The notes beneath the pieces are model-generated. The model saw only the letters and a list, made by a program, of their open reading frames with translations, had not been told where the DNA came from and did not search any database. This document shows positions 6,548 through 54,779 of a stretch of DNA of 64,000 bases, one piece after another. The stretch lies in contig CP126198.1 of assembly GCA_030272155.1 (NCBI GenBank), positions 2,976,001 to 3,040,000 of the forward strand, written 5' to 3'. The stretch comes from Tetradesmus obliquus. Its lineage: Eukaryota > Chlorophyta > Chlorophyceae > Sphaeropleales > Scenedesmaceae. The position numbers and the translations under genes are program-made. Each line of letters starts with the position of its first letter. The stretch's first letter is position 1.

Positions 6548-7993
6548 ATGGAAGGCAGTGGAGCGCCAGGGGGCGCTCAGACGAGCATCATGGCTCAGCT
6601 GGAGTCTCTCACTCGGCTGGCGAACGTGTTCACAGACCCTTCATGCGGTATGTGATTGAACGTATGCGTAGATCATGGCGCAGCAGCGGCGCCAGCAGCC
6701 TCAGGACGCATGCAGCATGCTGTGCTGTGCTGCTGCTGCTGCTGCTCCTTGTGGTGCCATGCCTCGAGTGGTCGAAGTCGCATTCAAACTCTGCAACGAC
6801 AGCTGTGACATGCAGTTTCATGCACCTTGCATTCCCCTCACCCTCCGTTCTTGTACCTCCTCTCTCCTGCACCCACCCATAACCTCCCCAACCCCCACAA
6901 CACACACCCACCACCCTCCCTCCCCCCCTCCTCCCACCAATCCCCACCCACACCCTTTTCTTCTCGTTCTCTTCTTGTTCATCAACAGACATCGAGGCGC
7001 GCAAGAAGGCCACAGACTCCATCAAAGACAGTCAGGAGCTGTGGCACACAAAAGAGTACCGCCGCTTCCTGGAGGTCTTTTTTGACCCTTTGGTCCAGCA
7101 GCTCACCTCAACACCCCCGCAATTCGAAGACAGCGAGCTCCACAAGCTGCGCCACAGCGTGCTCGAGGTGCTTTCAAAACTCCCGCCAAATGAAGTGCTG
7201 CGGCCCTACATGCCGCGGCTGCTGGCGCTGTGTCTGGAGCTGCTGCGCAATGACAACCAGGCCAACGGCGTGCTGGCGTTCCATGTGCTGCTGGACCTGA
7301 ACAAGAACCTGGTGCGCAGCCAGGTGGCGGGCTTTGAGGGCCAGTTCACGGAGTGCGTGGCGTTCATTGAGAAGGTGCGCGGCTGGCAGAGCAGCAGCGT
7401 TTGAGTGTGGGTGCGGGTGACTAGGTGGGGCGGGCGGCCAGCGCACAGCAGCAGCGCGTGGGTGCGGTGCGCAGCGTAGCAGCGGTGCGGGGCAGTTCGG
7501 TGCAGAGCGCAGCAGCTGCAGTGCAGGGCAGCTGCATTGTGTTGCCGAGCAGCAGCTGCGGTGCAGAGCAGGGGCGTGGTGTTGCGGTGCAGCAGCTGGT
7601 GCAGCAGCAGTGCTGAGCAGCAGCTGCGTTCCGCTGCAGCAGCTGTGATACTGCCTGGAGCTGCTGGCTTGCTGCGTCTCCTGCAGCTTCTGCTGCTCAG
7701 GCTGGCATTGCATCAGCAATGCAGCTGTGCTGGTGCAAGTAAACAGGCAAGGGGCCCTCCAGTGCTGGCGCAGTGCAGGCGTAACTGTTGAGGGTGGTAC
7801 ATTGACTTGCAGCAGGCAGCAGGCAGCGTGAGGCAGCGCAGGGGAGGGAGCGTGTCAGCAGCATTGGGGGGCTGCACATGCAGCAGGCGGGGTACCACAG
7901 CTGTTGCAGCTGCATGCACATAGAGCACCGCAGCTGTCGCGGCCGTGTGCTGCACTGCGCTGCACTGATCCACGAAAACCTATGAACACACTC

Positions 7994-8057
<64 letters not shown>

Positions 8058-8189
8058 AGGTGTACAATGAGTTCCCTGCCACCTACAGCGAGGCCTTCAC
8101 CAGCAGCCCCCCGCGGCTGCCCAGCGACTTCTCGCCCACACACAGATCACTCAAGATGGTCTCAGAGTGCCCGCTGCCATGTGAGCGGC

Positions 8190-8222: not shown

Positions 8223-11200
8223 GGCTGGCAGGCGGGGGCGGGGCCGGCAGCGGCAGCAGCAGCGCAAGCATACCATGCAGTAACAGCAGCAGGCACCAGC
8301 AGCTGCACTGCGCCAGCAGCTGGACTGTAGGTTACAGCAGTGGAGCAGCGAAGCAGCGAGAGGTCATGTCAATGTCATCAGTAGCAATGGAAGGTTGCAA
8401 TTGTAGATTGATCTGCAGAATGCACAGCAGCACCTGCACATCCACCGACAACGGCACATGTGCCATTCTCTGCAATGCACAAGCCAGGAGAGCACGCATC
8501 TCAAACCCTGCACCACGTTCCTGTCTGAGCTGTCAACTTCACACCTGCCCCGCAGTGATGTTCATGATGCAGCTGTTCCCCCAGCTAGCCAAGGCCCGCG
8601 TGCCTGCATTGCTCCCAAGCATCGAAGCATGGTGGCAGCAGCATGCCTGTGCGGCCCTGAGCTCAATGCACTGCACTTTGCACTGCTTTCCCTTGCAATG
8701 CACATCCCATGCATTCCCTCTCCAATTCACCTGCTGTGCTGCACTCTGTCTCACCACTGCTCTGCTGCTGCCTGCTGCTGCCTGTTGCTGCCTGCATCCA
8801 CACCCTCACATCCGCCCCGCAGTGATGTTCATGATGCAGCTCTTCCCCCAGCTGGCCAAGGCCCGCGTGCCCGCACTGCTCCCAAGCATGGTGGCAGCAG
8901 CATGCCTGCGCGGCCCTGAGCTCAATGCGCTGCCAGGCGTGCCTGCTGCGCTGTGGGAGCGCGAGCAGCAGCGGCGCGACAGGGAGGCCAGTCAGCGTGC
9001 AGCAAGGGGCGGGGAGGGTCAGCTGCTGCCAGAGGAGAAGTGGCGGGAGCAAGTGAATGACAAGTGGCGGGAGCAGGTGTTGTCGGCAGTGGCGGATCTG
9101 AAAGTGGCGCAGGTGGGTTGTAGAAAAAGATGCGTAATGCACGCCACTCGCGTTGGTGTTACGTGTGCAAGATCATGATGATGCGCGCCTTCTCGGGCGA
9201 GCACGAGCCGCAAGTGGGCCAACATCAACCCACAATTATTGTGCAAACTTTCCAACAAACTTCCCGCCAAACTTCCCGCAGGTGCGCACACTGTACTTCC
9301 TGACCATGATGATGCGCAACTCTCCGGGCGAGCTGGAGCCGCACGCAAGCATCAACCTGCAATCTCACAACAAACTTCACCCCACACTCCTCACCAAACT
9401 TGCCGCCAAACTTCCCGCAGGTGCGCACGCTGAACTTCCTGACCATGATGATGCGCAACTTCCCGGGCGAGCTCGAGCCGCACGTCGGCCGCGTGTGCAG
9501 CGCACTCTTCTACCTCTTCCGCTCAGCGCCAGACTCCATTGCGGTGCGGCGCGAGCTGCTTGCTGCCACGCGCTACGTGCTGACCGGGCCTCAGAAAGCG
9601 GCGTGCTTTGCCGGCGTGATTGATGACGTGCTGGCTGAGGGCGTGCTGCTGGGCAGCAGCATGGCCAGCATGGAGGCGCTGCGCCCGCTGTCGGTGAGCT
9701 CATTGCGCTGCTTAAAATTGTGAGTTTTGGGGTTGGTGCTCATGTTTTTGGGGTGCGGCGCGTTGCTGATGGCCAGCATGGAGCCGCTGCGCCCGCGGTC
9801 GGCAAGGCCAGAGTGTAGGGTTCAGTTTCCTGCGCTGCTCAGATCGTGCAATCATTGGGTTGCGGCCCGCAGCAGCTTGGCCAGCATGGAGGCGCTGCGC
9901 CCGCTGTCGGTGAGTGCTTGTGGACTGTTGCCTTCTCTCGCGCTGCTGTGGATTGAGAGTTTCTGGTTTGCGGCATGCTGCTGATGGCCAGCATGGAAGC
10001 GCTGCGCCCATGATCGGTCAGCTCACTGCGCTGCTGGGGATCGTGAGTTTTGGGGTTGGTGCTCACGTTTTTAGGAGGGTTTTGGGGTGCGGCGCGTTGC
10101 TGATGGCCAGCATGGAGCCGCTGCGCCCGCTGTTGGCGAGGCCAGAGTGTAGGGTTCAGTCTGCTGCGTAGCTTGGGGTCTGCAATCGCTGGTTTAAAGC
10201 CTGCAGCAGCATGGCCAGCATGGAGGCGCTGCGCCCGCTGTCGGTGAGTGCTTGCGGACAGAGCATGCGTTCAGAGCTTCTGCGGTGCTTGGTGATTGGG
10301 TTGCGAGCGCTGCTGGTGGGTTCAACGCTGGGCAGGGCGGCTGCGATGCTTTTGGCGATTGCTTTGCGCCCACTGTCGGTGAGTCCGGTGCAGGGTTATG
10401 GTTACTTGCGCTGCTTGGGATTTAAATCCTTTTGTTGCGGCATGCTGCTGATGGCCAGCATGGAGGCGCTGCACCCGCTGTTGGTGAGTAGAGTATAGAA
10501 CTATAGGTGAGTGGAGTATAAAACTGTTATATACAAACAAATCAGAATCAGCGGTGTCAGTGCGTGCAGTGTTGAGCGAAGCCTGGACTGCGCCTTGTTT
10601 GAACGATTTTTCTTGCGGGGCTGGGGCTGCTCCTCCTGTCGGTGAGCGCAGCGAGCCTTGTTTGTGTGCGTAGCTACTGTGTTGCCTGGGTTTCGTCAGG
10701 TGCGCCCTGCTACTTAACGTGCCATTGATGCTGCTGCCCTGCTGTCGCTCGGTGGAGTGGTGTCGTACCTGGCCTGTTGTTCATGCAGTTTACAAACACC
10801 TGCTGTCGCCTGGTGTCCCTCCAACCCTCCACAGGTTATGAGGTTTTACGAGATCGTGCACCACAGGCGCTGCTGACGCTGCTGCCCTGCTGTCCCTGCT
10901 GTTGCCTCATGGCCCTCCTAATCCGCCGCAGGTGATGACCTTCTGCGAGATCGTGCACCACACGCGCAAGTCGTTCAGCTTGGAGCAGCTCGGGGGAGTG
11001 GTGTCGTACCTGGCCTGCTGCGTGGCGGACCGCTCGCTGCCCTTCAACACGCAGTCCACATGCGTGCGGCTGTCGCTCAACTTGGTGGAGTGCCTATACC
11101 AGGTGCGGGTTGTTATCTTGTTGTGACGCCTGCACTTGTTGTCTGCCCTGCTTTGCATCCCAAGTCACGCCTTCTCCCTGCGTCCTCACCCCCCAGCCTT

Positions 11201-14200
11201 GCGCTGCGCTGGTGTTATTGGATACCCGATCAACACATTCTCATATTCTTTTTCTTCTTCTCATGTTCCTCTGTGTGTGTTCCTACCACCATCTCTGCAC
11301 CGCCGCAGGCCTTCAAGCGCCCCGATGCCGACCTTGCTGCCAAGAAGCTGGCGCAGAGCCTGCTGTCCAAGATCCTGGGCAGCTTCGTGGCCAAGCTGAC
11401 GGCACTGGCACAGGTGGGAAATATCTGTGGGTGATATCTGAGGGGAATATCTGTGTGTATCAAGGGTATCTCTGCAGAGCCTGCTGTCCCAGAGTCTGGG
11501 CAGCTTTGTGGCCAAGCTCACCGCACTGGCGCAGGTGCGGCAATGGATTTAGCAATGGTTGTTGCCGGCGCTGTTGCATCAGAGGTTGACTTCGCAGACC
11601 TTGCTGTCCAAGATCCTGGGCAACTTCGTGGCCAAGCTCACCGCACTGGCACAGGTGGGCAATGAATGTGGCAGTGTTTGTGGCCAGCACTGTTGCATTG
11701 AGGTGATTTTGCGGAGCCAGCCGAGCCTGCTGTTCAAGGTCCTGAGCAACTTTGTTGCCAAGCCTACTGCGCTGGCACAGGTCAGAACATCCAGTTGTGC
11801 ATGTAGCATGCCTGAAACTGTCATTTCACATCCCTGGCATCATCGCTGCGGTGCAAGACGTGCGTGTTGTTCCGCATGTTCCTGCACCATGTTTGCCTTG
11901 TGCTGGGTTGTTTGCCCTGCAGGACGTTCCCGGCATCATCGCTGCAGTGCAAGACGTGCGTGTTGTTCCGCATGTTCCTGCACCATGTTTGCCTTGTGCT
12001 GTATTTTCTTTTTGCTCTGCAGGACATCCCCGGCATCATCGCCGCAGCTCACCGTAGCGCTGCTCTGCAAGAGCCGCATGGCTAAAGCAATATTTGCCTT
12101 GTGCGGTCCTTCTTGCAGGACATTCCCGGCATCATCGCTGCAGCGCGCGAGCAGCGCAACGAGCGGCTGTCTGTGCAGGGCAGCATGCGCGACGCGGCCA
12201 ACCCAGACACCCACGTGGTGCTGTACCTGCAGGTGCGGCTGTCGTGATACGCCGTACAACAACTTCTTTTATCTTTGCCCAATGTGCGCGTTATGCTCAG
12301 ATCCATCAGATTGGGAAACCGCTGTTTCTGAATCTCTGCCATACCGTACATCAGCTGGCAGCTGCCTTTGGTGTCATTTGGTGTGCGGCTGCAGCAACGC
12401 TGAGCATGTTCAGCCGGCAACGGCAGCGGGTGCCTTGGCTGATGTTGTGTGTGCTTGCCGCAGCTTCAGCTTGTTGTACGTCCAGTGCGCAGCCACACCA
12501 CGCATGCGCCTGCCATCTGCTGCTGCTGCTGCTCTGTCAAACCGTGCAATTTCACATCACAACAGCCTGTCAACCGGTCTGTTCACTAATCTATTGATAA
12601 ATGTTTCATTATTTTGTCACTTTGCGCGTGCAGGGCCCTGGTGAGAAGGAGAAGGAGATCAATGACTGCAAGCTCATCGTGCAGAACATCGTCTTTGGCG
12701 CCAAGACGCTGCTCTTCTCCATCCTCTACTGCACGCGCCACTACCACAACGTGCAGCAGCACGAGGCAGCAAAGGCAGCAGCGCTGGCAGCAGGGCAGCC
12801 GCTGCCTGCCATGAGCCACAGCCCGCCGCCTGTGGGCATGCCTGAGGAGGATGTGCGGACGTGTGCGCAGCTGCTGGTGGCGGGGCTGTCCTGCCTCAAG
12901 GTGGCAGCGTTTTTCGGGTGAGCGGGCTGGAAGCTATATTGGTTATGGTAGTGGGACGGCTGGCTTCATGAAGTGGAGTGTGCAGGAGGTAGGGTGTGCA
13001 TCATGTCTGCGCTGTTGCTGTGGAACGGCACTTCAGTTGCTCGTCCTGAGTTTGGGACAGTGTAACTTGTCTTGGTGATCATGCACCTGCGCAACTTCTT
13101 GAATGCTTGTTCTGTGTGAATGTTGATATACAACATAATATTACACACTCTTATCTGACCAACTTTACACCACGGTCTTCCCACCCTGAACTTCACCCTG
13201 CAGGGAGGGCAAGGAGTTCTGCGAGCACTTCGCGGAGATCTTCACGGTCATGGACCCGCGCGACTTCACGGACGTGTTCAGCGTGCGCATGGGCGTGCTC
13301 TTCGACATCATGGCGGGTGACGCTGATGCGCTAACTGTGGCGGCACACCTGGTGCAGAGCAGCAGCGTGGGGCGGGTGTTCAATGCGCTGCTGGCGCGTT
13401 ACCTCACAGAGCACAAACTGGCGCTGCTGGCAGACCATGCGAGCAACGTGAGTTGGCATTTGGGTGGCAGCAGGAGTGTCACCTGAGTTCTTTGTTATGC
13501 GCTAGGTGCCAGAAGCAGTTGGCAGGTACAGTTAGGGGTTTGACCAGGGGAGCATTGCGCATCCTTGCTGCCTCGAGCTGCCTCCAGAAGCAGCGCCGCT
13601 GGCTTTAGTCAGCTTGCATGGTTCAATGCGCTGGCACGGTACTTGGTTGAACATTCTCTGGCGCTGCTGGCGGACCATGCAAGCAACGCGAGTTCTGAGC
13701 AGCAGGAGTCACGGGAGTTGATTTTTATGCGCTAGTTGCCAGACGCTGTTGGGAAGTGCAGTTGGGGCTGGAAGGGTGGCGCTGCAATTTCGTCAGCTGG
13801 CTTCAGCTGCACGTCAGCTTGGATGGTTGAAATGACTGTGCCTTGCAGTGCACAGCATCTACCTTACCTGAGCAGGGTATCATGGCCGAATCAGTGCTCC
13901 ACGTGCTGTTTCCATGCCATATGCCACCATCCTGCATGCCCCTTGCAGGAGGCGCTGCTGGTGCAGAAGCTGTTCAGGCTGGTGTTCCTGGGCAACCGTA
14001 CTGGCAACCAAACAATGCAACCTCTTTCCTCATTTTTTATGTCATTTTCAACACGCACGTTTATGTTCTATGCATGCCCACCCCTGCAGGAGGCGCTGCT
14101 GGTGCAGAAGCTGTTCCGGCTGGTGTTCCTGGGCAACCCTACCTTCCAGCAACCAAACCTCCTATCTTACTCTTCTTATGCCAGCACTCCTGGCATGATG

Positions 14201-15033
14201 TCTGTATATTGCCACCCTGCAGGAGGCGCTGCTGGTGCAGAAGCTGTTCCGGCTGGTGTTCCTGGGCCTCACCCTGGCTGATGGCGAGGCGCTGCTGCTG
14301 CCCACGCTGGTGTCCCTGGTGGGCAAGTGCCTGACAGCAGCGCAGCAGCAGCGCGACCCGCTGGCCTACCTGCAGCTGCTGCGCATACTGTTCAAGCACT
14401 GCCACGCGAGCAGGTGCGTGGGGTTGAGGGATGTTAGGTGGTGATGATCGATGCTTGTTGGGCGGTAGCAGACGGCATGCGGTATGTGCGGAAGATGCGG
14501 CTGCAGCTGCTGCGCATCCTGTTCAAGCACTGCCACGCAAGCAGGTGCGTAGGGTTAGGTTTGTTAGGTGGTGATGTTCAATGCTTGTTGGGCGGTAGCA
14601 GACGGCATGCGGTATGTGCGGAAGATGCGGCTGCAGCTGCTGCGCATCCTGTTCAAGCACTGCCACGCAAGCAGGTGAGGCAGGTGGCCATGGGTTTAGG
14701 GACTTTGTTGGTGATGGGTGAAGGACTTTGTTAAAATCTGGGCAGGCGATGGGTGCGCTTGCGGCTGCAGCTGCTGCGCATCCTGTTCAAGCACTGCCAC
14801 GCGAGCAGGTGCGTGCTTTGATGTTGTGGTGTGAGACAGGCCTTTCTGGGCTGCGGGGACTGCTTCAAGACTGGGTTATCTGGGGTTATTTGGGGCCTGG
14901 GGCGATGGCAAGAGATGACGGTTGCATTAATGGCTGCAGAAATAAGCCCACTGCTGAACGCGCCATGCAAGTAGTTTCGGAAGATCTCACCTGGTTGTGT
15001 GGCGCACAGCGGCATGTATACACTGCGCCTCAA

Positions 15034-19954: not shown

Positions 19955-19985
<31 letters not shown>

Positions 19986-20647
19986 GACAAGAATGGCAAG
20001 GATGCTCAGGAGACTGCAGCAGCAGACAAGCCAGCAGCAGGTGCTGCTGGCGCAGCAGTGAAGCAGGAAGCTGACGAAGACAAGCCTCCTGCTGCTGCTG
20101 CTGCTGCTGCTGGGCCAGATGCAGCAGAGCAGCAGAAGGACAAGAGTGTGGCTGCTGGCAGCGAGCAGCAGCAGAAGGCTGAGGCTGACAAGGCAGCAGC
20201 AGCAGCAGCCAAGGAGAAGGAGGAGGCAAAGCGCCCCCAGAGGCCTGCTGTGTCAAATGTTGCTGCAGGTGGGGAGTGGCTGTGGTTTAATACGCACCTG
20301 TGCGCTGCATTTGCATGTCTGGGCGCTGCAGCGCGTGCAAACAGTGCCCCCCTAAACCTCGTACTGGTCGCCTGCTACAGCTGTCCATCGGCTGTGCCTC
20401 TCTGAGACCAGAGATCAGTAGCCTGCCTCTTTTGAAGGCTCACGTGCGCCTGCTCTGTTGGCCAGCCTGCCCCACGCCACGCTGCTGCCGTGTCGAGTTT
20501 TGTCCTGTCATGCGCTGCCGCTGCTGCTTCTGCTGCTGCTGCTGCAGCGCGTGCCAAGTGGACTCAGGAAGCGGCTCATTATGCCGATGATGCCCCCACA
20601 AACTAGGCACATGGGTGCTGCCGCTGGTTTCACCTCAATTCGACATG

Positions 20648-44300: not shown

Positions 44301-47300
44301 ATGTCACAGCAAGCAGAGGCAGAGTAGCACGATGTCTCGCAGTTTTGAGGGTGTGTACAGAGAGCATGGCGCACTGGCGCAGTTACGGATGCAAGTCGAA
44401 GCCAATCTACCATGGAAGCTGAATCGACAAGAACTTGCTAGTGGGTCTATACAGGCTGCGCGCCTCAACAAACCGATTATTCTGATAATATATCTGCTTG
44501 AATAATACCATTGCTGTTTACTGCGGTAGCAGGCACACGTGCTGTGCAAGGGTGCGTCGCATGAGAACCCGTGCGATGTGAACTTGCGGCATTCCTCGCC
44601 AGCCAAGGCTCGGCAAGCCCAGCAGAGAAATCGATGTTATCATTTGAGCACGAAAAAGTTCATTACAAAAGTTTTTAGTCCAGCCGCGCAGCCTGTACAG
44701 ATCTCCCTGTGCAGAATTCGTTGTCGATTCAGCTTCCGCGTCAATTGGCTTTTCCTGGTATCCTTAACAGTAATTTCGACTACACAGCAAACACTTGTTT
44801 TGATTGGTTTGTTGGTTTAACTTATCTAACCTCTGGCAGCTTGGCCTGGAGTGCCTCCAAAATCTTAGCTGGGCCTCAGCCAGCATGAGCACACCATTGT
44901 GCCCCTTGTTCATCCTCAACTGATGACAATAACAAGTAAAAATTATGGGTGTGGCGCGGACATAAAATAACGCAGTTGGATAGCGTTGAGACATCCTGGA
45001 GACATGAAGGTGAGGCGCCACATGCCATGACACTTGGGCCACTGGCAGGACGCGGTTGGGTCACACCAACCCGTACAGCTACAAACTAACACCTGACCGT
45101 GCCTTTGCTTTCGTTGCACTGCAGGCTGCGCACGCCGAACGAGTGGGACAGCCTGGTGCACTGGCAGGACGTGCTGCTGTGGCGCAATCACATCTACAAT
45201 GTGGTGATTGGCGCCTTCAACAGCATGCAGGAGATTGCGCCGCAGCTGCACCAGATGGGCTACAGGGACAAGGCATGGAGCGTGAACAAGCTGGGACACA
45301 TCGCGTACAAGTGAGGCTGTGTACTGAATGTTTGGGTTCAGCAGGGTTCACACACACAAGCTTCAGCAGGGGCTGTATAGAGGTGCCCCGTGATGTATGT
45401 AAGGGGGTTGGTGTGATGTCTGTCAGTTGTTTTGGTTTTGTGTGTTGAGCCTGGGGCGTGAAGAAGCTGGCCCATATCACGTACAAGCCTCCTGTTATAT
45501 GTGTTTACGGCGTGTGCCCCTGATGTGTGTGAGCCAGTTCATCAGAGCTGCAATATCGTTGTGGTGCATGTCAATTTTGCGCTTTAACTAATTGGAGTCA
45601 GGTTTGACTGCACAGCTGGCAGTTGCGCCATTGCACACTTCGTTGCAGGAAACTCGACGCGAGGATGAATGTTTCCGTCCCTCCTTTCGTGCTTTACCTC
45701 CATTCTTCCACGCGCAGCCACGGCTGCCCGATCGCACATTGTAACACCACACCTTGCTGCAGAACAAGCACATCCAACCACCCTATCACACCACTGCTCT
45801 TGTCTGCCGCCCGTATTTCCCCTAATCTCAAATTCCCTCGCAGGCACGGCTGCCCCGACGTGTGCATCACTGTCATCAACAACATGTACGGCTACAACGC
45901 GATGGAGGTGCAGGAGGCATTCGTGAAGATCAAGGAGCAGGCACGGGCATACCTGGCGCTGCCGCTGGACCTGCGCGCAGGTGCGACGAAGGGCTGCATG
46001 TGTTTGGCAGCTCATTATGTTTAGGGATGTGTTGTTTGCTGTTTTTATGTTACGGTAAGTAGGTGTGTGCATGCCTTTGCTTGGCACTGCTGCTGGACCT
46101 GCGCGCAGGTCATTCGCATACTAGGCGAGGCTGCGTGGTGCTGTGCTTCACATGCTTGTGTCCATGTGTACTGCTTGCCGCTTGTTTTTTGTTTTGGGTG
46201 AGTGTGCGCACGCTCTCTTACAGCGTGTGCGAATCTCTGCACAAACCTGCCCTATGACTTTCGATTTGTTGCTGCCGCGCCGCAGGCCTCAACATGCTCA
46301 ACACCACCAACCTGGACTACTTTGCAGCGCACCACCAGGCAGAGATCTTCAGGCTGAAAGCACTGTTCATGGCAGAGCCAGGCATGGGCGACCTAGATGG
46401 GGCCAACAGCGCGCTGAGCACCGCGCTGTGCCTGTGGCGGCAGTGCCCTGACGCGTGGCTGTCGTGGGGGCAGCTGTGCGACGCACGCTTTGAGGCAGAC
46501 CCTGCGGTGCGTTTCGGGGCGTGCTGGGATAAGTGATGGAATTTACTGGGTTCATGTACATTCACAGCAACAGCCAGCTACCCTCCTGACTTGCACATGA
46601 CGTTTTTCTCTTGTTACATGGCCTGACTTCTTACTTGGTTGTTGCCTGACTTGTTTGTAATGTTTTGTGCTCTTCCTCCCGCTGCCAACGGTCCTCAACC
46701 CCCTGCAGGGTCCCGCCTCGCAGCAGCTGCTGCAGTACGCAGCGCACTGCTACGTGCAGGGCATCAAGCTGTCCACTGCGCCCCTGGCAGCAAGCGGCAT
46801 GAAGGCACGCAACGAGGAGGCGCTGCAGGCCAGCATCGACCTGCTGCCGCGGCTGCTGCACCTGCTCAGCTTCGACGACAGAGACGGTGAGCAATAGCAG
46901 CGCAGCTGAAGAGCCTCTATGTTCTGTACTGCTATTTGACAAAGATGCAGGTTGCTTGGTTTTCTTGCGTAACAGCTAGGGCATATTATTCAGCCGCCGC
47001 GGTGCAATGTCTATCATCGTCTGCGGCTGTATCCACACCGGTGTGCATCACCAATGCTTGGTCAACATGGTCAAACAGCGACCGGTCAAACCTGGTCAAA
47101 CTTGCGCCGCAGGTGTGGTGGGCGAGGAGCTGCAGAAAGCTGTTGATGAGCGCAGCCTGCCGCCCTGGATCTGGTTCATGTGGATCCCTCAGCTGCTGAC
47201 CAGCCTCACACGGCCCGAGACGCACCGGGTGAAGCCCATCCTGAAGCAGCTGGCTGAGGTGCGCGGTCAAGTCTGGTCAAACATGGTCAAAGTTTGACCG

Positions 47301-47917: not shown

Positions 47918-49321
47918 AGCAGACGAGGCTGTGCGCAATGCGCGTGCTGCACTGGCAGCGCTGGCACCCTCCTCAGACACCACTGCCTTTGATGGAGGCA
48001 AGGAGGTGAGCCGGCTCAATGGCGCATCCAGCACCCAGCCCCAGGCAGCACCATCGCCTTGGTCACAGAGTCAACAAATGTCATTCTTCTGCTTTGTTCT
48101 GTCCTGTAATGCGCTGCTCTGGGCTAACCTCGTGCAGGTCATGGGGCGGCGGTGCCAGGGTCAAGCACACCGCTGCATCACAAACGTGCATATGCTCGAC
48201 CGCTGCTTGCTGTATCGTACTGTTGTCAATGTGAATCCAAGTATCTTGCTCTGTTGCGCTGCGCCGCACTGTTTTGTATCCTGTGCAGGTCATGGAGCGG
48301 CTGCGCAGCCAGCACCCCGTGCTGGGCAGCACCATGGAGGGCCTGCTGGCGGAGGTGGGCTCAAAGTTTGTGCCGCGCCCACTGGAGCGGCTGCTGGCGG
48401 TGGTGACGGCGCTGCTGCACAGGTGAGACCGCAGGCAGTGCGGCGCTGCGATTGGCAATGCAGACGTACTTGCTCGTTTATTGTGCGTGTAAGCATTGCT
48501 TTGTTGCTGTCTGTGGTGGGCGTGGTTGTGTGCCCTGCCTACTGGAGCGGCTGCTGGCGGTGGTGACCGCGCTGCGGCACAGGTGAGGCGGCAACACCAT
48601 TTGAGGTGCATGCATGACGCTGCGACGCGTTTTGTGGTGTGTGTGTCTGTGCGCGTGTGCGTGAGCGTGGCCGCTGCTGGCTGTGGTGACCGCGCTGCTG
48701 CACAGGTGAGGCGGCAGGCAGTACGGCGCTGCAGGTGTTGGACAACAGCGGCGGTGCAGGTGTTAGACAGCAGCGGGCCACAGGACCCGTACGTGTTGGG
48801 GCATGTTGCTGCATTGCTGTGTGCAGGGTGTTGTATGCAACACCTGCCAACCTCTGTCAGTTTGCACCTCACCTGTCAAGCTGTGGTAGCATCTCAGTTA
48901 CTGTTCTACATGTTGTGAGTAATAAAACAACGGTGCTGCTGCCCTGCAGGTGCTACAAGCTGCCTGTCGCCAACAGCAGCGCGGTGCCGGACCACATGCG
49001 GCGCGAGATGGCTGGCGTATGCAGAGCCTGCTTTGCATCAGAGACCAGCAAGCTGCAGGCGCGCAACATGCAGGTGGGCTGCGTGTGTGGCACACAGCTT
49101 GACATGGCTGCTGCAGCAGCGTATGGCTGCCGTGTGTTGAGGCTTGCTGCAGGTCCTCAACTGCTCACAAGCCACCTGCCCTGCAACACGACATCACCGT
49201 GCTTTGCACCTTGTCCACCCTGCGTGCTGTTGCTGCTGCTGCTGCAGCCTGTGGAGCTGCGTGAGGGCTTCCTGCACGACGCCAACCCCAAGAGCCGCGG
49301 CTTCCCACCCAGCATACTAAC

Positions 49322-49353: not shown

Positions 49354-52300
49354 CGCAGCCTGTTGAGCTGCGCGAGGGCTTTCTGCACGACCTGAACCCC
49401 GAGAGCCGCGGCTTCCCTCACACGCTGGGCGAGCTGGCGGAGCGGCTCAAGGCGTGGCGCAACAGGCTCACCACGGAGCTGGAGGCAGCCATGCCGCACA
49501 GCCTGAGGCTGGAGGAGGAGTGCCGTGCGCTGCAGGTGCGTGCTTTTGGGTGTTGTATGCAGCACTCTGTAATGCTATGTTGCACCAACCAGCGAAAGGC
49601 GGTCATGCGTGCGCAGTGAAGGCAACGCTAGCAGGTAAGTTCTGTTTGGTTAGAGATGGTGGTGATCTTGGTGTCAACAAGTCGCAACAGGCTCACCACG
49701 GAGCTGGAGGCAGCCATGCCACACAGCCTGAGGCTGGAGGAGGAGTGCAGGGCGCTGCAGGTGCATTCTTGGTCAAGCTTGTTTGTGGATGCATGATTGG
49801 GTGTGCAGCACAATTGACGGCTCGACATGCAGTACTGCGCGCTGCATGTGCGGTTGTTGATGAGTGGGCGGCTTGTGCAGCTGTGGTGTAAGCTGCAGCC
49901 TTTGCTTCTTCCACTGCTCCTGCTCACTGTTTTGCTGGCTCGTGTGTTGTTGTTGGCACGGCATTACCAGACGCAAAACTACTGCTCAGTGAGTGGGTAA
50001 GTAGCTACCCAGGCAGCTCTGCAGCTCCTGGGTAATGCTGGCGAGGGTGTGTGTACTGCTCAGATATACTGTCCCTGCTTTCTTCACCCTTGCAGGACAT
50101 CCAGCTCTCGGAGGTGCAGCTGCCTGGGCAGTACCTTGCGGGCCTTGTTATCATACCAGAAGCTGCTGCTTGTCTCACTTCTTTTTTTGTTGCTCATCGC
50201 TTGTGCTGATTGTTTTCCTTTTACTATTTCATCAATCCCACCATTGCAGAACATCCAGCTGTCAGAGGTGGAGCTGCCAGGGCAGTACCTTGCGGGCCAC
50301 GAGGTCACGCCAAACTCCAGCAGCAATGCTCATAACTTGTCTTGCTTCTTTCTTGCTGTCCTACTGACATCCAAAACATGCACAACAGGCTGCTTTGCCT
50401 CCCTTTCACCTATTTGCCCTGCTGCTGCTGCCTCATTGTCCTGTTTGGTCTTTTCACCCTTGCAGGACATCCAGCTGTCGGAGGTGGAGCTGCCGGGGCA
50501 GTACCTTGCGGGCCACGAGGTCACGCCAAACTCCAGCAGCAATGCTCATAACTTGTCTTGCTTCTTTCTTGCTGTCCTACTGACATCCAAAACATGCACA
50601 ACAGGCTGCTTTGCCTCCCTTTCACCTATTTGCCCTGCTGCTGCTGCCTCATTGTCCTGTTTGGTCTTTTCACCCTTGCAGGACATCCAGCTGTCGGAGG
50701 TGGAGCTGCCGGGGCAGTACCTTGCGGGCCACGAGGTGACGCCAGACTCCAGCATCTACCTGGAAGCCATCTCCAGCAACGTGGCCATCGTGCGCCGCAG
50801 CGCCAGCAGCTTCAGGAGGCTGTCCCTCATCTGCAGCGACGGCATCACGCGACACATGCTGGTGCAGGTGCGCGGGGGTTTGCGTGTGTTGTGTGTTAGC
50901 TGGGTTTTTGACGGTGATTTGTTGTTGCATGCGTCTGCAGCGATGGCATCACACGCCACATGCTGGTGCAGGTGTGCGCGCCAGCCGATGTTTTGTGTGT
51001 GTTGTGCGTTGCCCAGCTTCGTGATGGTGTGGTTGTGCAAATGTCGGCGCAGCGCCAGCTGCTTGGGGCGGCTGTCCCTCATCTGCAGCGACAGCATCAC
51101 GCGCCACATGCTGGTGCAGGTGCGCTTTTTTATTTGTCCTTCCCGTAATCTCAACAAGACGCTGCACATGCTTGCGCCGGCAGTTTGCTGCCTACGAATG
51201 CATGCTGTGGCAGAGCGTGCATATGCACATGTGCTGGCGGTGCCTAACCGCGTCCCCATGCACATCACAACACCAGTGCATGATCCCGTACACAACCGCC
51301 ACAGCAAACGGGCGCATCACAAGCCTTCCTTCACACTCACTCCTGCTCCGCTCTCACCCTTTCCCACTGCGCTGCTGTCTTCCACGTTCCCTCCGCAGAC
51401 CGGCCAGAACAGCACGCAGGGCGCCGCTGACGAGCGCATGATGCAGCTGCTGCGGCTGCTTAACAGGCTGCTGGAGCGCAGCCCTGAGAGCAGGCGGCGG
51501 CTGCTGGCCTGGCACACGCCCATCATCGTGCCAGTCTGGCCGCAGGTGAGCGCCGCGGCTGTGGTTTGATGTGTGTTTTGATTGTAGGTAGAGTGCTGCT
51601 GCTGGCCTGGGCACGCCCATCATTGTGCCGGTCTGGCCGCAGGTGATTAATGTGTCATCTTGTATGTTACTTCTGTGGTGCTGAGCCATATGCATGCTTT
51701 GCCGTGTGTCACCTGGCCTTGCACACGCCCATAATCATGCCTTGATTGTTGTCAAGCCATACGCATGCCAGTTTGTCAGATTTCGACCACTGCTAGTCAG
51801 CCGCTTTGCGTCACCTGCATCATGCATATTTCCTTGCCTTGCAGGTGCGCTTGTTTGAGGAGGAGGCGATCCTATCACAACCACGCTGCTACTGTGCTGC
51901 TTGATCACTGTTAACCAGCCATATTGCGTCACCGGCATCATGTATTGCAGGTGCGCCTGTTTGAGGAGGAGGCCTCCTACTGCAGCTACGGCGAGGCGTA
52001 CGACATCAACTGCGCGCGATTCGGGCGCGAGCCTGACATGCCCATCGCGCACTTCAAGAAGCGCCTCGCAGCGCCAGATGGCAACTACGACAAGGTGCGT
52101 GTGTGTGCGACATGCAGGAAGCTTGCAGGAAACTTGCAGGAAGCTTGCAGGAAGCTTGCAGGAAGCTTGCAGGAAGCTTGCAGGAGGCTTGCAGGGAACT
52201 TTGTGGTGTAGTACAGCTGCTGGTGGCTTTGTTGGCTCCCTGTGGTATAGTTTGGTATTTTACACAACAAGCGTGAGGCTTGAGAGTATTGCAAGAAGCA

Positions 52301-52759: not shown

Positions 52760-54779
52760 GGGCATGAGCTTCTAACAGCGTGGCTGTTGTATAGCGCGCT
52801 GCTGCTGTGGGTTGGAGTGCCGCTTGCTTGTGTTGTTGCACAGCGGTTACAACAAGGATACGGTTGTGCATGTCAGTGGTGACGCGGCCGGCGGGCAGCG
52901 TACACTATGCTGCTAGCATCAGCTACTGTATGCCTGTGCCGCAGCGTGCTTCTGTGCGTGTTGCGCAAGGGGCTAACGGCCCCTGCTTGCATGCAAGCAG
53001 GTCATTGAGATCGGCAGCACCAGCAGTTGACGGCTGCTTCGTTTCTCGCACTTGGCTAGCGTGCAGCTGCAAACCATAACGTCTGCTGCCTTGCACCGCC
53101 TGCCGCACCCTTCCTGCAGGCCTGCTGTGCTACATGCTGCTGCTGTCGGGCCGCTCGCCCAGCAAGATCCTGTTTGCAAAGGACAGCGGGCGGCTGTTCC
53201 AGCTGGACCTGCTGCCCCTGTACAATGACAAGGGCATGGTGGAGCGTATCGAGGTGGTGCCTTACAGGCTCACGCGCAACCTGGCCACCTTCTTCACAGC
53301 CTTTGGCGTGGAGGTGAGTTGGATGTTGTTTAACTGTTTGATGCTTGTGATGTTGGGCTTTGACGTGGTGCCCTAGGGGCTCACGCGCAACCTGGCCACC
53401 TTCTTCACAGCCTTTGGCGTGGAGGTGAGTTGGCTGCCTTTAGCGTTGTTATAGACTGGTATGACGCTTGTTATGTTGTGCATAATGCAGTGGTGCCATA
53501 TTGGCTCACATGCAACCCGCAAGGACAGCTGTACATCAACCCAGTTTAGTGCTGTTTTGAGGTCGTCGTACTCGCGCTTGGCATGTCAAATTCCGCTGCG
53601 GTGGTCACAATTTTGCGGAGATGCACCGCTGCAAGCTGTCGCACATATTTCTTATCACGCGTGTGTTCCCAGCTGTTGCTGTGCTGTTGCTCCTGTGGTG
53701 ATGCGTATCATCGCTGCTGCTGCTGCCCGGCTGTCTCGCAGGGCGTGTTCATCCCCGCGCAGGTGGCTGCCGCCGCTGCGCTGCTGGCGCGCAACAGCAA
53801 CCTGGCTGCTGTGCTGTGCCAGTTCTTCAGGGAGGACCTGCTGGCCTGGACCAGCCGCAAGGGCAAGGGCAGCAGCGGCGGCGTGCACCTGCCCAGCGAC
53901 ACACTGAAGGGGCTGGTCGTGAAGAACACGCAGCAGGTGGGGTTTGCGACGCAGTGCACGGTGTTAGGTTTGAGTGTTATGTCTTGGTTATTCACTGTTA
54001 CTTTTGTATGATTATTGTTAATTTGTGTGGGCAAGGGCAGCAGCGGCGGCAGCACCTGCCCAGCGACACACTCAAGGCTCTGGTCGTGAAGAACACGCCG
54101 CGGGTAAGGGTTCAGAGCGCAACGCAGCCTGCTGAAGGTCGAGGTTGTCATTGATTGTTATTCTCGTTATTCTGTATGATCTGTTGTTACTTTGTAGGGG
54201 CAAGGGCAGCAGCGGTGGCAGCACCTGCCCAGCGATACTTTGAAGGGCGTAGTTGTGAAGAACACGCAGCAGGTGAGGGTTGAGAGCGCAGCGCGGCCTT
54301 CAAGGGTCGATGTTGTCATTGATTGTTTTCCCCTGTTACTTTGTAAGACTTATTGCTACTTTGTATGGGCAAGGGCAGCAGCAGTGGCAGCGCATGCCCA
54401 GTGACACGCTCCAGGGCCTGTTGGTGAAGAACACGCAGCAGGTGGGGCTCAGGGCTTGCAACCCCCGAGGTGCAATTGCGGGCGCCGAGGGTTGGTGTCA
54501 TGAGTTATTGTTGTTCACCAAGGGCAAGGGCAGCAGTGACGTTGTGAACCTGTCCAGCGGCTGCAGCGCACGCAACTGCACGGCTGCCACTGCCACCTAA
54601 GTTTCGCGCTTTCTGCCCCGCAGGTGCTGGAGCGTGTGCGGCACTTTGCTCCCGAGCCCGTGAGCGAGGATATGCTGCCTGCCAGGCCTGTGCACCACGG
54701 CGCGCTGGAGCTGTCTGATGCGGCCATGAGCCCCAAAACCCTTTGCAGGATGGACCCCACCTGGATGCCCTGGTACTGA
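6548..54779 (+). CDS. TRA1: TRA1/TRRAP: giant PIKK-family pseudokinase scaffold of SAGA and NuA4
   Basis: Tra1/TRRAP is the activator-binding subunit of the nuclear SAGA and NuA4 histone acetyltransferase complexes. I placed 64 exons (listed by block below). Their phases agree throughout and their sum, 15,432 nt, is divisible by three with no internal stop, giving 5,143 residues. The match to plant and animal proteins runs along the whole length: LRHSVLEVLSKLPPNEVLRP near the N-terminus, IPKHLLQNSLRPILQNLGDY, KVERLFLLGLRAADP, PPWIWFMWIPQLLTSL, VELPGQYLAGHEVTPD, GRSPSKILFAKDSGRLFQLD and a terminal LCRMDPTWMPWY. The start ATG at 6548 is upstream of the first conserved exon and joins it in phase. 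The extra length comes mainly from Ala/Gln inserts in exons 18, 24, 30, 33, 35, 38 and 41. A TGTAA (55237-55241) may be the poly(A) signal. Confidence 0.95.
7994..8059 (+). repeat. (CTG)n of about 21 units abutting the exon 3 acceptor
   Basis: An uninterrupted CTG run ends in CTGCAG at the splice acceptor. It takes the place of a polypyrimidine tract and is the longest pure triplet run in the window. Confidence 0.9.
8555..8670 (+). repeat. Upstream copy of the TRA1 exon 4 head
   Basis: About 115 nt closely matching the start of exon 4 (8823), with its CGCAG acceptor. The copy is interrupted after GGCCCTGAGCTCAATG. Confidence 0.88.
9161..9345 (+). repeat. Two upstream copies of the exon 5 head
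   Basis: Segments 9161-9218 and 9282-9345 repeat GTGCGCACGCTGAACTTCCT and the following ATGATGATGCGC stretch of exon 5 (9421). The second keeps TTCCCGCAG before it. The flank CCAAACTTCCCGCAG is repeated too. Confidence 0.88.
9694..10870 (+). repeat. Six downstream copies of the exon 5 tail, plus copies of the exon 6 head
   Basis: The exon 5 end ATGGCCAGCATGGAGGCGCT and its donor recur at about 9770, 9880, 9983, 10103, 10211 and 10450, roughly every 105-240 bp and variably decayed. Nearer exon 6, pieces of its head (GTGGTGTCGTACCTGGCCTG at about 10758; ACGAGATCGTGCACCACA at about 10848) appear before the real exon at 10932. Confidence 0.87.
11474..12047 (+). repeat. Three exon 7 tail copies, then three exon 8 head copies
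   Basis: Tail copies lie at 11474-11534, 11594-11654 and 11712-11780, each ending CTGGCRCAG|GT. Head copies of GACATTCCCGGCATCATCGC lie at about 11833, 11922 and 12021. The stretch between successive head copies (GTGTTGTTCCGCATGTTCCT and so on) is itself repeated about every 93 bp, so the duplicated unit spans exon head plus intron tail. Confidence 0.88.
13617..14140 (+). repeat. Exon 10 tail copy and two exon 11 head copies
   Basis: The exon 10 end recurs at 13617-13687, but its donor has become GCGAG. Two copies of GAGGCGCTGCTGGTGCAGAA with CTTGCAG or CCTGCAG acceptors lie at about 13950-14000 and 14090-14140, ahead of the real exon at 14223. Confidence 0.87.
14414..14808 (+). repeat. Exon 11 tail copies in near-identical tandem units of about 130 bp
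   Basis: CTGCTGCGCATCCTGTTCAA and its donor recur at about 14505-14543, 14635-14676 and 14770-14808. The first two sit in almost identical units of about 130 bp that include the intron start and TTGTTGGGCGGTAGCAGACG. These duplications look young. Confidence 0.9.
15298..15445 (+). repeat. Two upstream copies of the exon 13 head
   Basis: CAGCTCAAGTACCTGCTGGT-like segments at 15298-15330 and 15399-15445 precede the real exon at 15507. A tail copy of the same exon (CTGGCACTGGGGCTCAGGAC) lies at about 15750-15791. Confidence 0.85.
16256..16905 (+). repeat. Exon 14 tail copies and exon 15 head copies
   Basis: Tail copies with GCTGG|GTGAG donors lie at about 16256-16321 and 16408-16471. Head copies of GCGGGCGCAACCGCAAGTTC lie at about 16738 and 16843, ahead of exon 15 at 16991. 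Confidence 0.87.
17203..17470 (+). repeat. Exon 15 tail copies and an exon 16 head copy
   Basis: CTGCGCCTCAT...AGGCCCAACACCAG plus GACAG|GTGCGG recurs at 17203-17261 and 17349-17401. A piece of the exon 16 head (GCGCTGGCCAAGCACGGGC) appears at about 17438 before the real exon at 17534. Confidence 0.85.
18245..20268 (+). other. TRA1: TRA1 exon 18: long exon with Ala/Gln-rich insert
   Basis: This is the longest exon (2,024 nt, residues about 1003-1677). A HEAT-like start (RGTAFEKLATVLLEG) is followed by Gln/Ala/Ser tracts. A conserved helical island then appears around 18745-18910 and 19215-19500 (LPRVLHCCWDDSWPARLGGM). After it comes a long Ala, Gln and Lys/Glu-rich stretch encoded by CAG/GCA repeats, ending with KEKEEAKRPQRPAVSNVA. 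The low-complexity parts have no counterpart in plant or animal TRRAP. They are probably disordered loops between solenoid helices. Two short intronic gaps could hide inside, but the frame is open throughout. Confidence 0.8.
21221..22470 (+). repeat. Copies of exon 20 head and tail and exon 21 head
   Basis: A head copy (about 21221-21330) precedes exon 20. Tail copies with ACGTACCCAGAGCCG|GTGAG lie at about 21790-21838 and, more decayed, at 22020-22065. Decayed exon 21 heads (CAGGCCAAGGCGCT, GATGTTCCGCGCCCT) appear around 22288, 22362-22415 and 22457. Confidence 0.78.
22865..23362 (+). repeat. Four to five downstream copies of the exon 21 tail
   Basis: CTGCTGCACGGCCTGGGGCG followed by CTGCTCAGCGACTG|GTGCG recurs at about 22874, 22990, 23110 and 23230, with a decayed fifth at about 23310-23357. 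Spacing is about 110-125 bp. Confidence 0.9.
25997..27417 (+). repeat. Exon 26 head and tail copies and exon 27 head copies
   Basis: Heads (GCGCGAGGCGCTGCTGCCGT) lie at about 26000, 26205, 26322, 26446 and 26551 before exon 26 at 26666. Tails (GTGGAGCCGCTGCTGGACCT) lie at about 26885, 27003, 27098 and 27207 after it. Exon 27 heads (CACTGCACCAGCGTGGACAT) lie at about 27251 and 27381 before the real one at 27590. Confidence 0.87.
27780..28014 (+). repeat. GGGCTGGGTGG minisatellite with exon 27 tail copies
   Basis: A GC-rich GGCTGGGTGGYGG minisatellite follows the exon 27 donor. Decayed copies of the exon end (ACACCCAACATCTGTACAGCAG and a third version) sit at about 27850-27883 and 27980-28013. 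Confidence 0.8.
28445..28760 (+). repeat. Three tandem copies of exon 28 tail plus intron start
   Basis: Units of about 125 bp contain CTCAGCAGCGTGTTCCGGGT...CTCGGTGCTGTTTG|GTGAGTGG followed by GGGAAGGGAGTATGCGCGTG. They repeat the exon-intron border of exon 28 (ends 28394). The copies are highly similar. Confidence 0.92.
29250..29735 (+). repeat. Border duplication after exon 29
   Basis: The exon 29 end plus donor recurs at about 29425-29462 (AGTGCCCGAGGAATCGCC, now ending TAG|GTAACT). The following intron piece ATGTCATGCTTTACG to about 29420 recurs at 29585-29735. One large border-spanning duplication followed by small insertions explains both. Confidence 0.8.
31405..31532 (+). repeat. Downstream copy of the exon 32 tail
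   Basis: About 125 nt repeats GCCAGCCTGGAGAACCGCAA through GGGCTGCC and a GGCAG|GTGGGT donor from exon 32. Confidence 0.88.
32372..33004 (+). repeat. Exon 34 head copies upstream and a tail copy downstream
   Basis: GGCGCTGCACCAGCACACGC recurs at about 32477 and 32571 in near-identical units of about 95 bp, with a decayed copy at 32372. These precede exon 34 (32667-32765). The tail plus GTGGGTCAGGGGTTG recurs at 32944-33018. Confidence 0.9.
38755..39080 (+). repeat. Three tandem copies of the exon 41 tail
   Basis: Units of about 117 bp carry GGGCAGCACTGGCCAGCTGA...GAGTACGCGCAG|GTGGGC and then GTTATATGTTATAATGTTTG. They are nearly identical to each other and slightly diverged from exon 41. 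Confidence 0.92.
39135..39723 (+). repeat. Five tandem copies of the exon 42 head and its acceptor
   Basis: GTGGACCCGTGTGTGGCGTA preceded by a (CTG)nCAG acceptor occurs at about 39361, 39494 and 39606, with two older versions at about 39135 and 39252, before the real exon at 39724. The last three units are almost identical and carry (TGCTGCTGTTCCTGTC)n between them. Confidence 0.92.
40005..41264 (+). repeat. Copies of exon 42 tail and exon 43 head and tail
   Basis: Exon 42 tails (GCACGGCCCAACGTGGTGC) lie at about 40015 and 40155. Exon 43 heads (GCGCTGCTGGAGGGCATCAG) lie at 40438 and 40595 before the real exon at 40739. Exon 43 tails (GACGAGACGCGCTGCTTCGA) lie at about 41120 and 41222. Confidence 0.88.
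41455..42196 (+). repeat. Copies flanking exon 44 on both sides
   Basis: Head copies (GAGGACATGATGGCCGGGCT) lie at about 41588 and a decayed one at 41455. The 41588 copy runs into TGA. Tail copies (CAGCTGGGCATGGCGGAG...GACCAGCCAAGTC) lie at 41920-41996 and 42115-42196. Confidence 0.88.
44381..44774. mobile_element. Inverted-repeat element in TRA1 intron 47 (possible MITE or foldback)
   Basis: Two imperfect arms of about 85-90 bp face each other: 44381-44465 and 44686-44774. They share a perfect 17-bp core, GGAAGCTGAATCGACAA at 44414-44430 and its complement at 44721-44737. Matching stretches on either side include AAGCCAAT and ACAGGCTGCGCG. The spacer and arms are AT-richer than the rest and lack CTG triplets. 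No coding capacity and no clear target-site duplication are visible. It lies in the longest TRA1 intron (1,711 nt). Confidence 0.55.
49248..50540 (+). repeat. Copies around exon 57 and three copies of the exon 58 head
   Basis: A head copy of exon 57 lies at 49248-49312 and a tail copy at 49683-49759. Exon 58 heads (GACATCCAGCTGTCGGAGGT) lie at about 50096, 50252 and 50467 before exon 58 at 50682. The last two intervals are near-identical units of about 215 bp. Confidence 0.9.
50938..51122 (+). repeat. Two downstream copies of the exon 58 tail
   Basis: CACGCCACATGCTGGTGCAG|GT with the preceding GCAGCGAYGGCATCA recurs at about 50938-50972 and 51055-51120. Confidence 0.85.
52111..52198 (+). repeat. 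12-bp minisatellite GCTTGCAGGAAG
   Basis: Seven imperfect copies of a 12-bp unit lie just after the exon 60 donor. Each contains an AG acceptor-like TTGCAG. Confidence 0.9.
52725..52758 (+). repeat. (TCTG)n microsatellite
   Basis: About eight TCTG units in intron 61. Confidence 0.92.
53367..53424 (+). repeat. Downstream copy of the exon 62 tail with an in-frame stop
   Basis: GTGGTGCCCTAGGGGCTCAC and the rest of the exon 62 end, with its GTGAGTTGG donor, recur 111 bp downstream. The copy reads TAG where the exon has TAC. Confidence 0.9.
54030..54560 (+). repeat. Four copies of the exon 63 tail
   Basis: GGGCAAGGGCAGCAGCGG through GAAGAACACGCAGCAG|GT recurs at about 54030-54103, 54201-54271 and 54367-54441, with a shorter copy at 54525-54560. 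Spacing is about 170 bp. Confidence 0.9.
54624..54779 (+). other. TRA1: TRA1 exon 64: FATC domain and stop
   Basis: The last exon gives 51 residues and a TGA at 54777-54779. The terminal LCRMDPTWMPWY matches the invariant FATC ending of Tra1/TRRAP (LCRMDPxWxPW followed by an aromatic or Leu). This fixes the C-terminus. Confidence 0.95.

Follow-up and report, generated by a model that had tools for sequence, protein, structure and literature searches.

Minisatellite arrays that undergo unequal exchange are made of head-to-tail units, and the interiors of such arrays are more alike than their ends. Large-scale change in intron content has been described in a green alga, Micromonas, where introners share sequence among many genes (PMC3488318). 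Duplications have been connected with introns in several other settings. In the potato RdRp gene, a tandem duplication across an intron-exon border made a new intron (PMC4974935). Partial exon duplications with AG/GY proto-splice sites were proposed as the source of some novel intron positions in Drosophila (PMC2891723). In polyubiquitin genes, introns lie inside tandem repeats and use dual-specific splice sites (PMC10809524). The potato intron is the one case of a border-crossing duplication that we found in the open-access literature, which yielded nothing similar as a general mode of intron growth and no description, in any alga or elsewhere, of introns built genome-wide from copies of their own exon edges.

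The introns of a TRA1/TRRAP-like gene (hereafter TRA1) of the green alga Tetradesmus obliquus contain copies of the edges of the adjoining exons. In each repeat unit, a core derived from the exon edge and its splice site can be told apart from a spacer. The comparison with these systems is as follows. As in potato RdRp, the duplication runs across the border of an intron and an exon, and it is the duplicated splice signals that determine which sequence is removed (PMC4974935); the potato case, however, is a single event that produced a new intron together with an extra exon segment, whereas TRA1 has dozens of copies that lengthen existing introns, with cores that do not age with their spacers. 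Drosophila likewise offers local duplications of exonic sequence hidden by splicing (PMC2891723), but in those cases the duplicated segment is exonic and supplies both new splice sites, while in TRA1 it straddles an existing site and does not call for a new intron position. The expansion of polyubiquitin repeats is thought to be tolerated since extra units can be spliced out (PMC10809524); these are coding repeats with AGGT sites and an intron length that is a multiple of the unit, in contrast to the partial exon edges, ordinary introns, and nonrepetitive protein of TRA1. Unlike introners, the TRA1 copies are local and resemble their own exon only. They share with minisatellites head-to-tail units of about 100 nt and array interiors more alike than the ends, but an exon edge under selection anchors each TRA1 array.

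The window, by which we mean the whole stretch of 64,000 nucleotides analyzed, covers bases 2976001–3040000 of contig 8, has a GC content of 58.6%, and belongs to an assembly of 104.66 Mb in 17 contigs. In the table of a published survey, the species is listed with 108 Mb, 57% GC, and a mean intron of 462 nt (PMC5966456). The TRA1 exon model was built with a purpose-written gene finder trained on seed exons and was then curated by hand; the joins at about 23.9–25.4 kb, 31.7–32.1 kb, and 34.8 kb are uncertain. With loose settings the gene finder took many repeats as short exons, most of which were removed by a short-exon penalty. As the copies mimic exons that carry good splice sites, many of them are called by a gene finder that takes no account of them, and the gene models of such genomes may be wrong in many cases. 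PDB chains of Tra1/TRRAP match the C-terminal 891 residues of the spliced copy-free model with E values down to 6e-98. Human TRRAP gives one unbroken match over residues 3–890 of this part, yeast Tra1 chains match too, and, judged by eye, the alignment leaves no space for copy peptides at the covered junctions. Pfam searches of the exons found FAT above its cut-off in one exon (27.0 vs. 24.2 bits), PI3/PI4-kinase 0.1 bit short of its cut-off in one exon (27.0 vs. 27.1), and a weak subthreshold match to Tra1_central in one exon. An exon of about 2 kb at 18245–20268 is rich in Q/A/K/E low-complexity sequence and CAG repeats; most other exons are shorter than 300 nt.

Self-BLAST of positions 6400–55000, with simple repeats masked and E values up to 1e-3, gave 139 direct HSPs, all at offsets below 3 kb and none at 3 kb or more. 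None of them joins two exons. Anchoring the copies on splice sites, we mapped 87 border copies, namely 53 tail copies from 30 exons and 34 head copies from 22 exons (table 1). They occupy 38 of the 62 introns, with one to six copies in each. The preliminary description had counted by eye about 43 of 63 introns with one to six copies; the pattern and the range hold, and the mapped count is lower. Because this mapping searched the predicted side only, direction was tested separately on the HSPs. Among the 102 in which one copy includes 15 or more exon bases, 38 place a copy of an exon head upstream of it and 64 a copy of a tail downstream, with no head copy downstream and no tail copy upstream; in the remaining 37, neither copy reaches 15 exon bases. 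The directional placement first noticed by eye is thus found without exception, and the self-comparison shows the repeats to be real, direct, and local. An exon border is included in 52 of the 56 TRA1 repeat families, against 25.6 ± 3.0 expected by chance (maximum 36 in 500 circular shifts). The copies are direct duplicates, within 3 kb, of an exon edge with its splice site, and TRF arrays and step statistics show head-to-tail units of similar length, as in minisatellites. The presence of exon-edge copies in TRA1 introns is confirmed as a real and strong observation.

Table 1. TRA1 gene, exon-edge copies, and other repeats of the gene region (positions in the window).
Feature	Positions	Strand	Details	Evidence
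TRA1/TRRAP-like gene	6548–54779	+	63 curated exons, 62 introns, mean intron 532 nt	gene finder, curation, PDB match
Head copy, exon 8823–9112	8539–8674	+	border 8556, 267 nt upstream	self-BLAST, border mapping
Head copy, exon 9421–9693	9282–9345	+	extra partial copy 9171–9220	self-BLAST, border mapping
Tail array, exon 9421–9693	9769–10488	+	ends 10016, 10135, 10243, 10483 (also ~9797, ~9909)	self-BLAST, border mapping
Head copy, exon 10932–11102	10799–10870	+	border 10835	self-BLAST, border mapping
Tail array, exon 11309–11413	11474–11782	+	~120-nt period; ends 11534, 11654, 11780	TRF, self-BLAST, border mapping
Head array, exon 12119–12232	11833–12048	+	96-nt period	TRF, self-BLAST, border mapping
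Tail copy, exon 13204–13447	13621–13767	+	intron flank alignable	self-BLAST, spacer alignment
Head copies, exon 14223–14413	13933–14134	+	at 13949, 14090	self-BLAST, border mapping
Tail array, exon 14223–14413	14501–14815	+	130-nt period; ends 14544, 14674, 14808	TRF, self-BLAST, border mapping
Head copy, exon 15510–15662	15397–15440	+		self-BLAST, border mapping
Tail copy, exon 15510–15662	15740–15802	+		border mapping
Tail copies, exon 16025–16175	16262–16479	+	ends 16321, 16470	self-BLAST, border mapping
Head copies, exon 16991–17114	16732–16907	+	at 16738, 16843	self-BLAST, border mapping
Tail copies, exon 16991–17114; head copy, exon 17534–17648	17204–17472	+	tails 17261, 17402; head 17432	self-BLAST, border mapping
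Head copy, exon 21438–21698	21207–21335	+	border 21218	self-BLAST, border mapping
Tail copy, exon 21438–21698	21789–21851	+	homology ends 14 nt beyond splice site	border mapping
Tail array, exon 22574–22812	22878–23359	+	ends 23042, 23153, 23270, 23354	TRF, self-BLAST, border mapping
Tail copy, exon with end 24255	24319–24406	+		self-BLAST, border mapping
Tail copy, exon with end 25415	25646–25703	+	97% identical, unrelated flanks	self-BLAST
Head array, exon 26666–26803	26006–26603	+	borders 26112, 26204, 26320, 26441	self-BLAST, border mapping
Tail array, exon 26666–26803; head copy, exon 27590–27779	26881–27282	+	tails 26920, 27041, 27128; head 27251	self-BLAST, border mapping
Tail copy, exon 27590–27779, and related spacer repeats	27862–28025	+		self-BLAST, border mapping
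Tail array, exon 28224–28394	28447–28808	+	115–125-nt steps; ends 28509, 28634, 28759	TRF, border mapping
Head copy, exon 29102–29249	29000–29035	+	homology starts at the AG itself	
Tail copy, exon 29102–29249	29424–29462	+		self-BLAST, border mapping
Head copies, exon 30470–30606	30226–30410	+		self-BLAST, border mapping
Tail copies, exon 30470–30606	30648–30745	+		self-BLAST, border mapping
Copy of tail region, exon 31009–31262	31414–31548	+	outside the 87 border copies	self-BLAST
Head array, exon 32679–32765	32288–32607	+	94-nt period	TRF, self-BLAST, border mapping
Tail copy, exon 32679–32765; head copies, exon 33472–34434	32948–33392	+	heads 33264, 33384	self-BLAST, border mapping
Tail copy, exon 35345–35484	35677–35804	+		self-BLAST, border mapping
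Head copy, exon 37720–38724	37584–37629	+	46/46 identical, unrelated flanks	self-BLAST
Tail array, exon 37720–38724	38777–39079	+	116-nt period	TRF, border mapping
Head array, exon 39724–39885	39133–39690	+	39363, 39494, 39606, weaker at 39133	TRF, self-BLAST, border mapping
Tail copies, exon 39724–39885; head copies, exon 40739–40918	40008–40678	+		self-BLAST, border mapping
Tail copies, exon 40739–40918	41081–41293	+		self-BLAST, border mapping
Head copy, exon 41703–41858	41575–41626	+		border mapping
Tail copies, exon 41703–41858	41920–42198	+		TRF, self-BLAST
Tail copy, exon 43295–43413	43490–43524	+	weak 28-nt match also at 44990–45017	self-BLAST, border mapping
Sole inverted repeat of the region	44382–44465 with 44682–44768		88 bp at 76%, within the longest intron	self-BLAST
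Tail copy, exon 45844–45980	46082–46110	+		self-BLAST, border mapping
Tail copies, exon 48289–48422	48529–48732	+		self-BLAST, border mapping
Head copy, exon 49359–49535	49246–49306	+		
Tail copy, exon 49359–49535	49683–49770	+		
Head array, exon 50682–50867	50083–50538	+	50096, 50250, 50466; 216-nt period	TRF, border mapping
Tail copies, exon 50682–50867	50934–51125	+		self-BLAST, border mapping
Tail copy, exon 51399–51545; head copy, exon 51951–52094	51595–51867	+		self-BLAST, border mapping
Tail copy, exon 53120–53313	53362–53517	+		self-BLAST, border mapping
Tail array, exon 53742–53936	54029–54559	+		TRF, self-BLAST
Coding-end echo	54733–54938	+	54733–54829 (stop codon 54777–54779) and downstream copy 54852–54938; not a splice border	self-BLAST

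An origin of these copies as an assembly artefact or a mobile element is highly improbable, and nothing was found in its favor. Only 11 of the 87 copies are exact across the aligned exon part, copies differ within arrays, and the pattern recurs on several contigs and both strands. The gene holds no distant direct repeats, and four of five spacer-containing queries had no other match in a genome search in which common words were skipped, so that a miss does not prove rarity; the fifth matched the genome in its CTG-rich part only. These results agree with the earlier statement that this growth of introns is unlike transposon insertion. Within the scope of these searches, the same sequence did not turn up at many unrelated positions, and a mobile element, an introner, or filler from elsewhere was rejected.

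Identity between copy and exon falls from about 0.9 beside the border to about 0.5 at roughly 50 nt inside the exon; by ungapped extension, none of the 87 copies spans a whole exon. The splice dinucleotide (GT or AG) is intact in 82 of them. Beyond the splice site, ungapped similarity extends over a median of 6 nt in tail copies (at most 10 nt in 41 of 53) and of 8 nt in head copies (at most 10 nt in 19 of 34). On the intron side of the tail copies, identity is 0.57 at the seventh base and near chance from the sixteenth. The copies thus carry the splice site as first described, but usually little of the intron flank said to accompany it. The further flank is significantly alike in 42 copies and unalignable in 45, although the exon part of these 45 is merely 8.9% diverged. 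Some exact or nearly exact cores (46/46; 97% over 60 bases) even occur where the sequences on either side are unrelated. Flank similarity is often missing from the most distant copy in an array, and many arrays therefore resemble (core-spacer)n-core. In the 42 alignable units, substitutions amount to 15.6% in the spacer and 7.2% in the exon part, and gaps per 100 bp to 6.4 and 0.5, respectively. The divergences of exon part and spacer are uncorrelated across these units (rho 0.04, P = 0.82), so that the cores fail to keep the time of their units; a model of constant core divergence fits better than a proportional one (chi2/df of 1.5 vs. 3.7).

One account of the copies is a plain tandem duplication spanning the border, after which the exon-proximal site is kept and the copy decays neutrally with no exchange. 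Direction, tandem geometry, length accounting, and frame consequences all fit it, as does the flank still alignable in 42 copies. Differences between copy and exon amount to 6.5%, 4.8%, and 13.1% at first, second, and third codon positions, and this third-position excess fits a neutral copy of a constrained exon. Under neutral decay, however, flank and exon part should age together. The 45 unalignable flanks next to little diverged exon parts, the missing correlation, and homology that mostly stops right past the splice signal make this account rather unlikely. The border-spanning duplication originally put forward is therefore partly supported: its geometry is right, including direction, length, and frame effects, while a joint neutral decay of exon part and flank is not supported and the dynamics are incomplete.

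Alternatively, unequal crossing-over between diverged haplotypes or hybrid parents could have joined a foreign but functional flank to the exon edge, leaving the edge alone recognizable. Such an origin would better explain unrelated flanks with intact polypyrimidine tracts: the 18 flankless head copies score 1.43, compared with 1.87 for real acceptors and −3.35 for other intronic CAG. On the donor side, flankless tail copies show no intron-like G+T excess relative to other GTGNG sites. The values of dS (0.20) and dN (0.052) between copy and exon also suit this origin, as does one tail copy at the AAA-ATPase locus L034 that, by eye, differs nearly only synonymously from its exon. A dS of about 0.2 is nevertheless too low for unalignable introns if introns change at the rate seen within arrays, where spacers at 15.6% are still alignable, and exact cores between alien flanks are unexpected. 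We regard this origin as unlikely.

Intron length roughly tracks the number of copies. Introns with copies have a median of 597 nt (n = 38) and those without of 322 nt (n = 24; P = 8e-7), as anticipated from the remark that nearly all long introns carry copies and copy-free ones are mostly short. Length follows 340 + 137 × copies (Spearman 0.75) or, with one intron of span 1596 excluded, 322 + 0.90 (± 0.06) × array span (r = 0.88). Once the arrays are removed, a mean of 270 nt remains in the 38 introns, compared with 340 nt for the 24 that lack copies (P = 0.03–0.05, 37 vs. 24). Each copy therefore seems to have brought its spacer; exon part and intron flank may have been duplicated together, the flank being alignable in 42 copies and not in 45. 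In a simple simulation, about 166 nt are left when a 60-nt core without its spacer is inserted at random. This is what would be expected if the edge and its splice signal were copied into the adjoining intron by transcription- or splicing-coupled repair, a process in keeping with the sharp end of homology at the splice signal and with perfect cores between unrelated flanks. Besides the residual length, the real-looking acceptors of flankless head copies speak against such templated copying, a stop-codon edge is echoed too, and the region holds a single inverted HSP, free of exon sequence, compared with 139 direct ones. We consider it quite unlikely. Insertion of the exon edge alone was rejected by length accounting and acceptor quality. 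The 86 copy-to-copy steps below 600 nt have a median of 129 nt (quartiles 111–178), with no clear bias toward multiples of three (34, 27, and 25 of 86), and whole units have been duplicated recently at 50239–50754 (98%) and 38658–39083 (97%). These data support growth of TRA1 introns by whole units, at about 130 nt per copy.

According to our computation, splicing at a copy would disrupt the frame in 78 of 86 cases (66 with a premature stop, 12 more with a frameshift) and would leave it open and intact in 8. It is very unlikely that the echoes are functional, as alternative exons, poison exons, or splice decoys under selection. The conserved GT or AG, a dN/dS of 0.26, and only 2 stops among 287 changed codons would fit such roles, as would acceptor-like signals (score >2) at the inner ends of tail copies, slightly above random (0.38 vs. 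0.26). However, 21 of 23 gaps are frameshifts, the stop depletion is not clear (4.9 expected, P = 0.13), the inner ends of head copies have fewer donors than random (0.15 vs. 0.22), and strong signals are not enriched (0.17 vs. 0.13 for tails, 0.00 vs. 0.13 for heads). The end-to-end alignment of the copy-free C-terminus with solved TRRAP argues in the same direction. Cassette or mutually exclusive exons were rejected, since no copy is a whole exon by ungapped extension and the inner ends lack strong splice signals beyond chance. Coding constraint on the copies was rejected on the strength of the frameshifting gaps; the dN/dS and the few stops are a residual signal.

We give about an even chance to a border-spanning tandem duplication that exon-proximal splicing makes tolerable and after which the exon edge and its echoes undergo exchange or conversion. 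A segment of about 100–250 bp spanning a splice site would be duplicated head to tail, as the geometry of the arrays suggests. The copy would survive if splicing keeps the exon-proximal site, the only consequence then being a longer intron, in line with the computed frame effects. Unequal exchange or gene conversion between the direct exon edges would then expand and contract the array. The decoupled ages of cores and spacers are read as the outcome of such exchange, in which the exon edge, held by selection, would be the partner that does not change: the exon-derived core would stay similar while spacers drift until little but the edge and its splice site aligns. Duplications that include no exon edge would have no constrained master, fade, and be rarely seen. 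In favor of this explanation count the uniform direction of the 102 HSPs, the excess of border-including families in TRA1 and in a sample from other contigs, the slope of intron length on array span, the recent whole-unit duplications, the decoupled divergences, the halt of homology at the splice signal, the computed frame disruption, the lack of whole-exon copies by ungapped extension, and the uniform direction at independent AAA-ATPase exons. Several observations count against exchange: no mosaic of converted and unconverted stretches was detected in the 55 cores tested (Stouffer z 0.26), the good polypyrimidine tracts of flankless head copies are odd if their flanks are old and neutral, the dN/dS is below the 0.5 expected for a wholly neutral copy, exact cores of about 50 bp between unrelated flanks would need very effective exchange, and no array polymorphism was seen in the single assembly. 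The echo at the coding end hints that something other than a splice site can serve as the anchor, which may be any constrained edge beside free DNA. A more far-reaching reading is that exon-intron borders are the replicating units of intron growth in this lineage, with selected edges that seed and homogenize their echoes, intron length that largely counts them, and purifying selection that drives noncoding expansion; we offer it tentatively, as somewhat more apt to fail than to hold. Transposon-free lengthening of introns is poorly documented, and TRA1 gives an unusually clear view of it. With 87 copies of many ages in one gene, birth, splicing tolerance, exchange, and decay could be directly measured.

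Outside this gene, we sampled 200 kb in five blocks from five other contigs. Near direct repeats occur in all five; each 40-kb block has between 17 and 103 HSPs (315 in total), and the offsets peak at 100–150 bp; 7 distant direct and 22 inverted HSPs were found. Without a gene model, donor-like sites are enriched 3–8 nt inside the outer end of the unit (144 sample HSPs). In the 88 sample families, good donors at the predicted versus the mirror end number 34 versus 6 (score >5) and 20 versus 2 (>7), and acceptors 41 versus 29 (>5), 35 versus 16 (>6), and 23 versus 9 (>7). The same scan is weaker in the 62 families of the window (donors 29 vs. 13 at >5, acceptors 19 vs. 14 at >6). With ab initio exons, 59 of the 88 sample families contain an exon border; circular shifts give 22.6 ± 4.3 (maximum 36). 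HSP direction is right in 119 and wrong in 37 of the sample, and, with exons of the same kind, right in 98 and wrong in 5 of the window. In our reading, the wrong calls in the sample arise mainly because some ab initio exons are themselves copies. The preferred duplication-and-exchange explanation has against it these 37 of 156 directions and the other 29 sample families, of which 24 have no predicted border (11 intron-like, 13 outside or unclear) and 5 are exon-internal.

As a cleaner check, based on exons recognized by protein homology, we also examined six of 26 AAA matches, from five contigs. Echoes flank five of these AAA-ATPase exons and were not seen at the sixth (L032). At E values up to 0.01, 10 direct HSPs include exon sequence (four head, six tail; three of them short, 21–31 nt), and every one has the predicted direction. 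The pattern also holds outside TRA1, at these AAA exons and in most of the sample, with the opposite directions given above as the exception. The samples from other contigs suggest that the 105 Mb genome is full of such copies. The FtsH-like AAA tail copy at L034:1643–2040 (+) shows, by eye, almost exclusively synonymous changes, including serine codon switches, and a 1-nt deletion; its sequence suggests that it may have been coding until recently. At L004:9320–9859, a head echo and a tail array of ~118-bp units with 97–98% identity accompany an exon whose peptide reads like a ClpP-type protease.

Other repeats were recorded along with these copies. Perfect or near-perfect young tandem duplications of 76 and 72 bp, with no predicted exon border, lie at L015:8011–8164 and L016:2715–2856, so plain duplications occur in this genome too. 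A 22-bp satellite array at L014:9796–10000 reaches the end of the fetched stretch, and a large tandem array of ~325-bp units with 96% identity (L017:6801–7976) overlaps predicted coding segments. Across the whole window, no tRNA and no Rfam match at the gathering score were found, and neither the ORF at 444–1592 nor the 507-codon open frame on the + strand at 60642–62162 has a Pfam match. The neighboring gene region upstream holds two tandem arrays, of 75 and 206 bp (3217–3387 and 3580–3972), that possibly represent the same phenomenon as the TRA1 copies. CAG/CTG microsatellites are very frequent across the window, in introns and in some exons.
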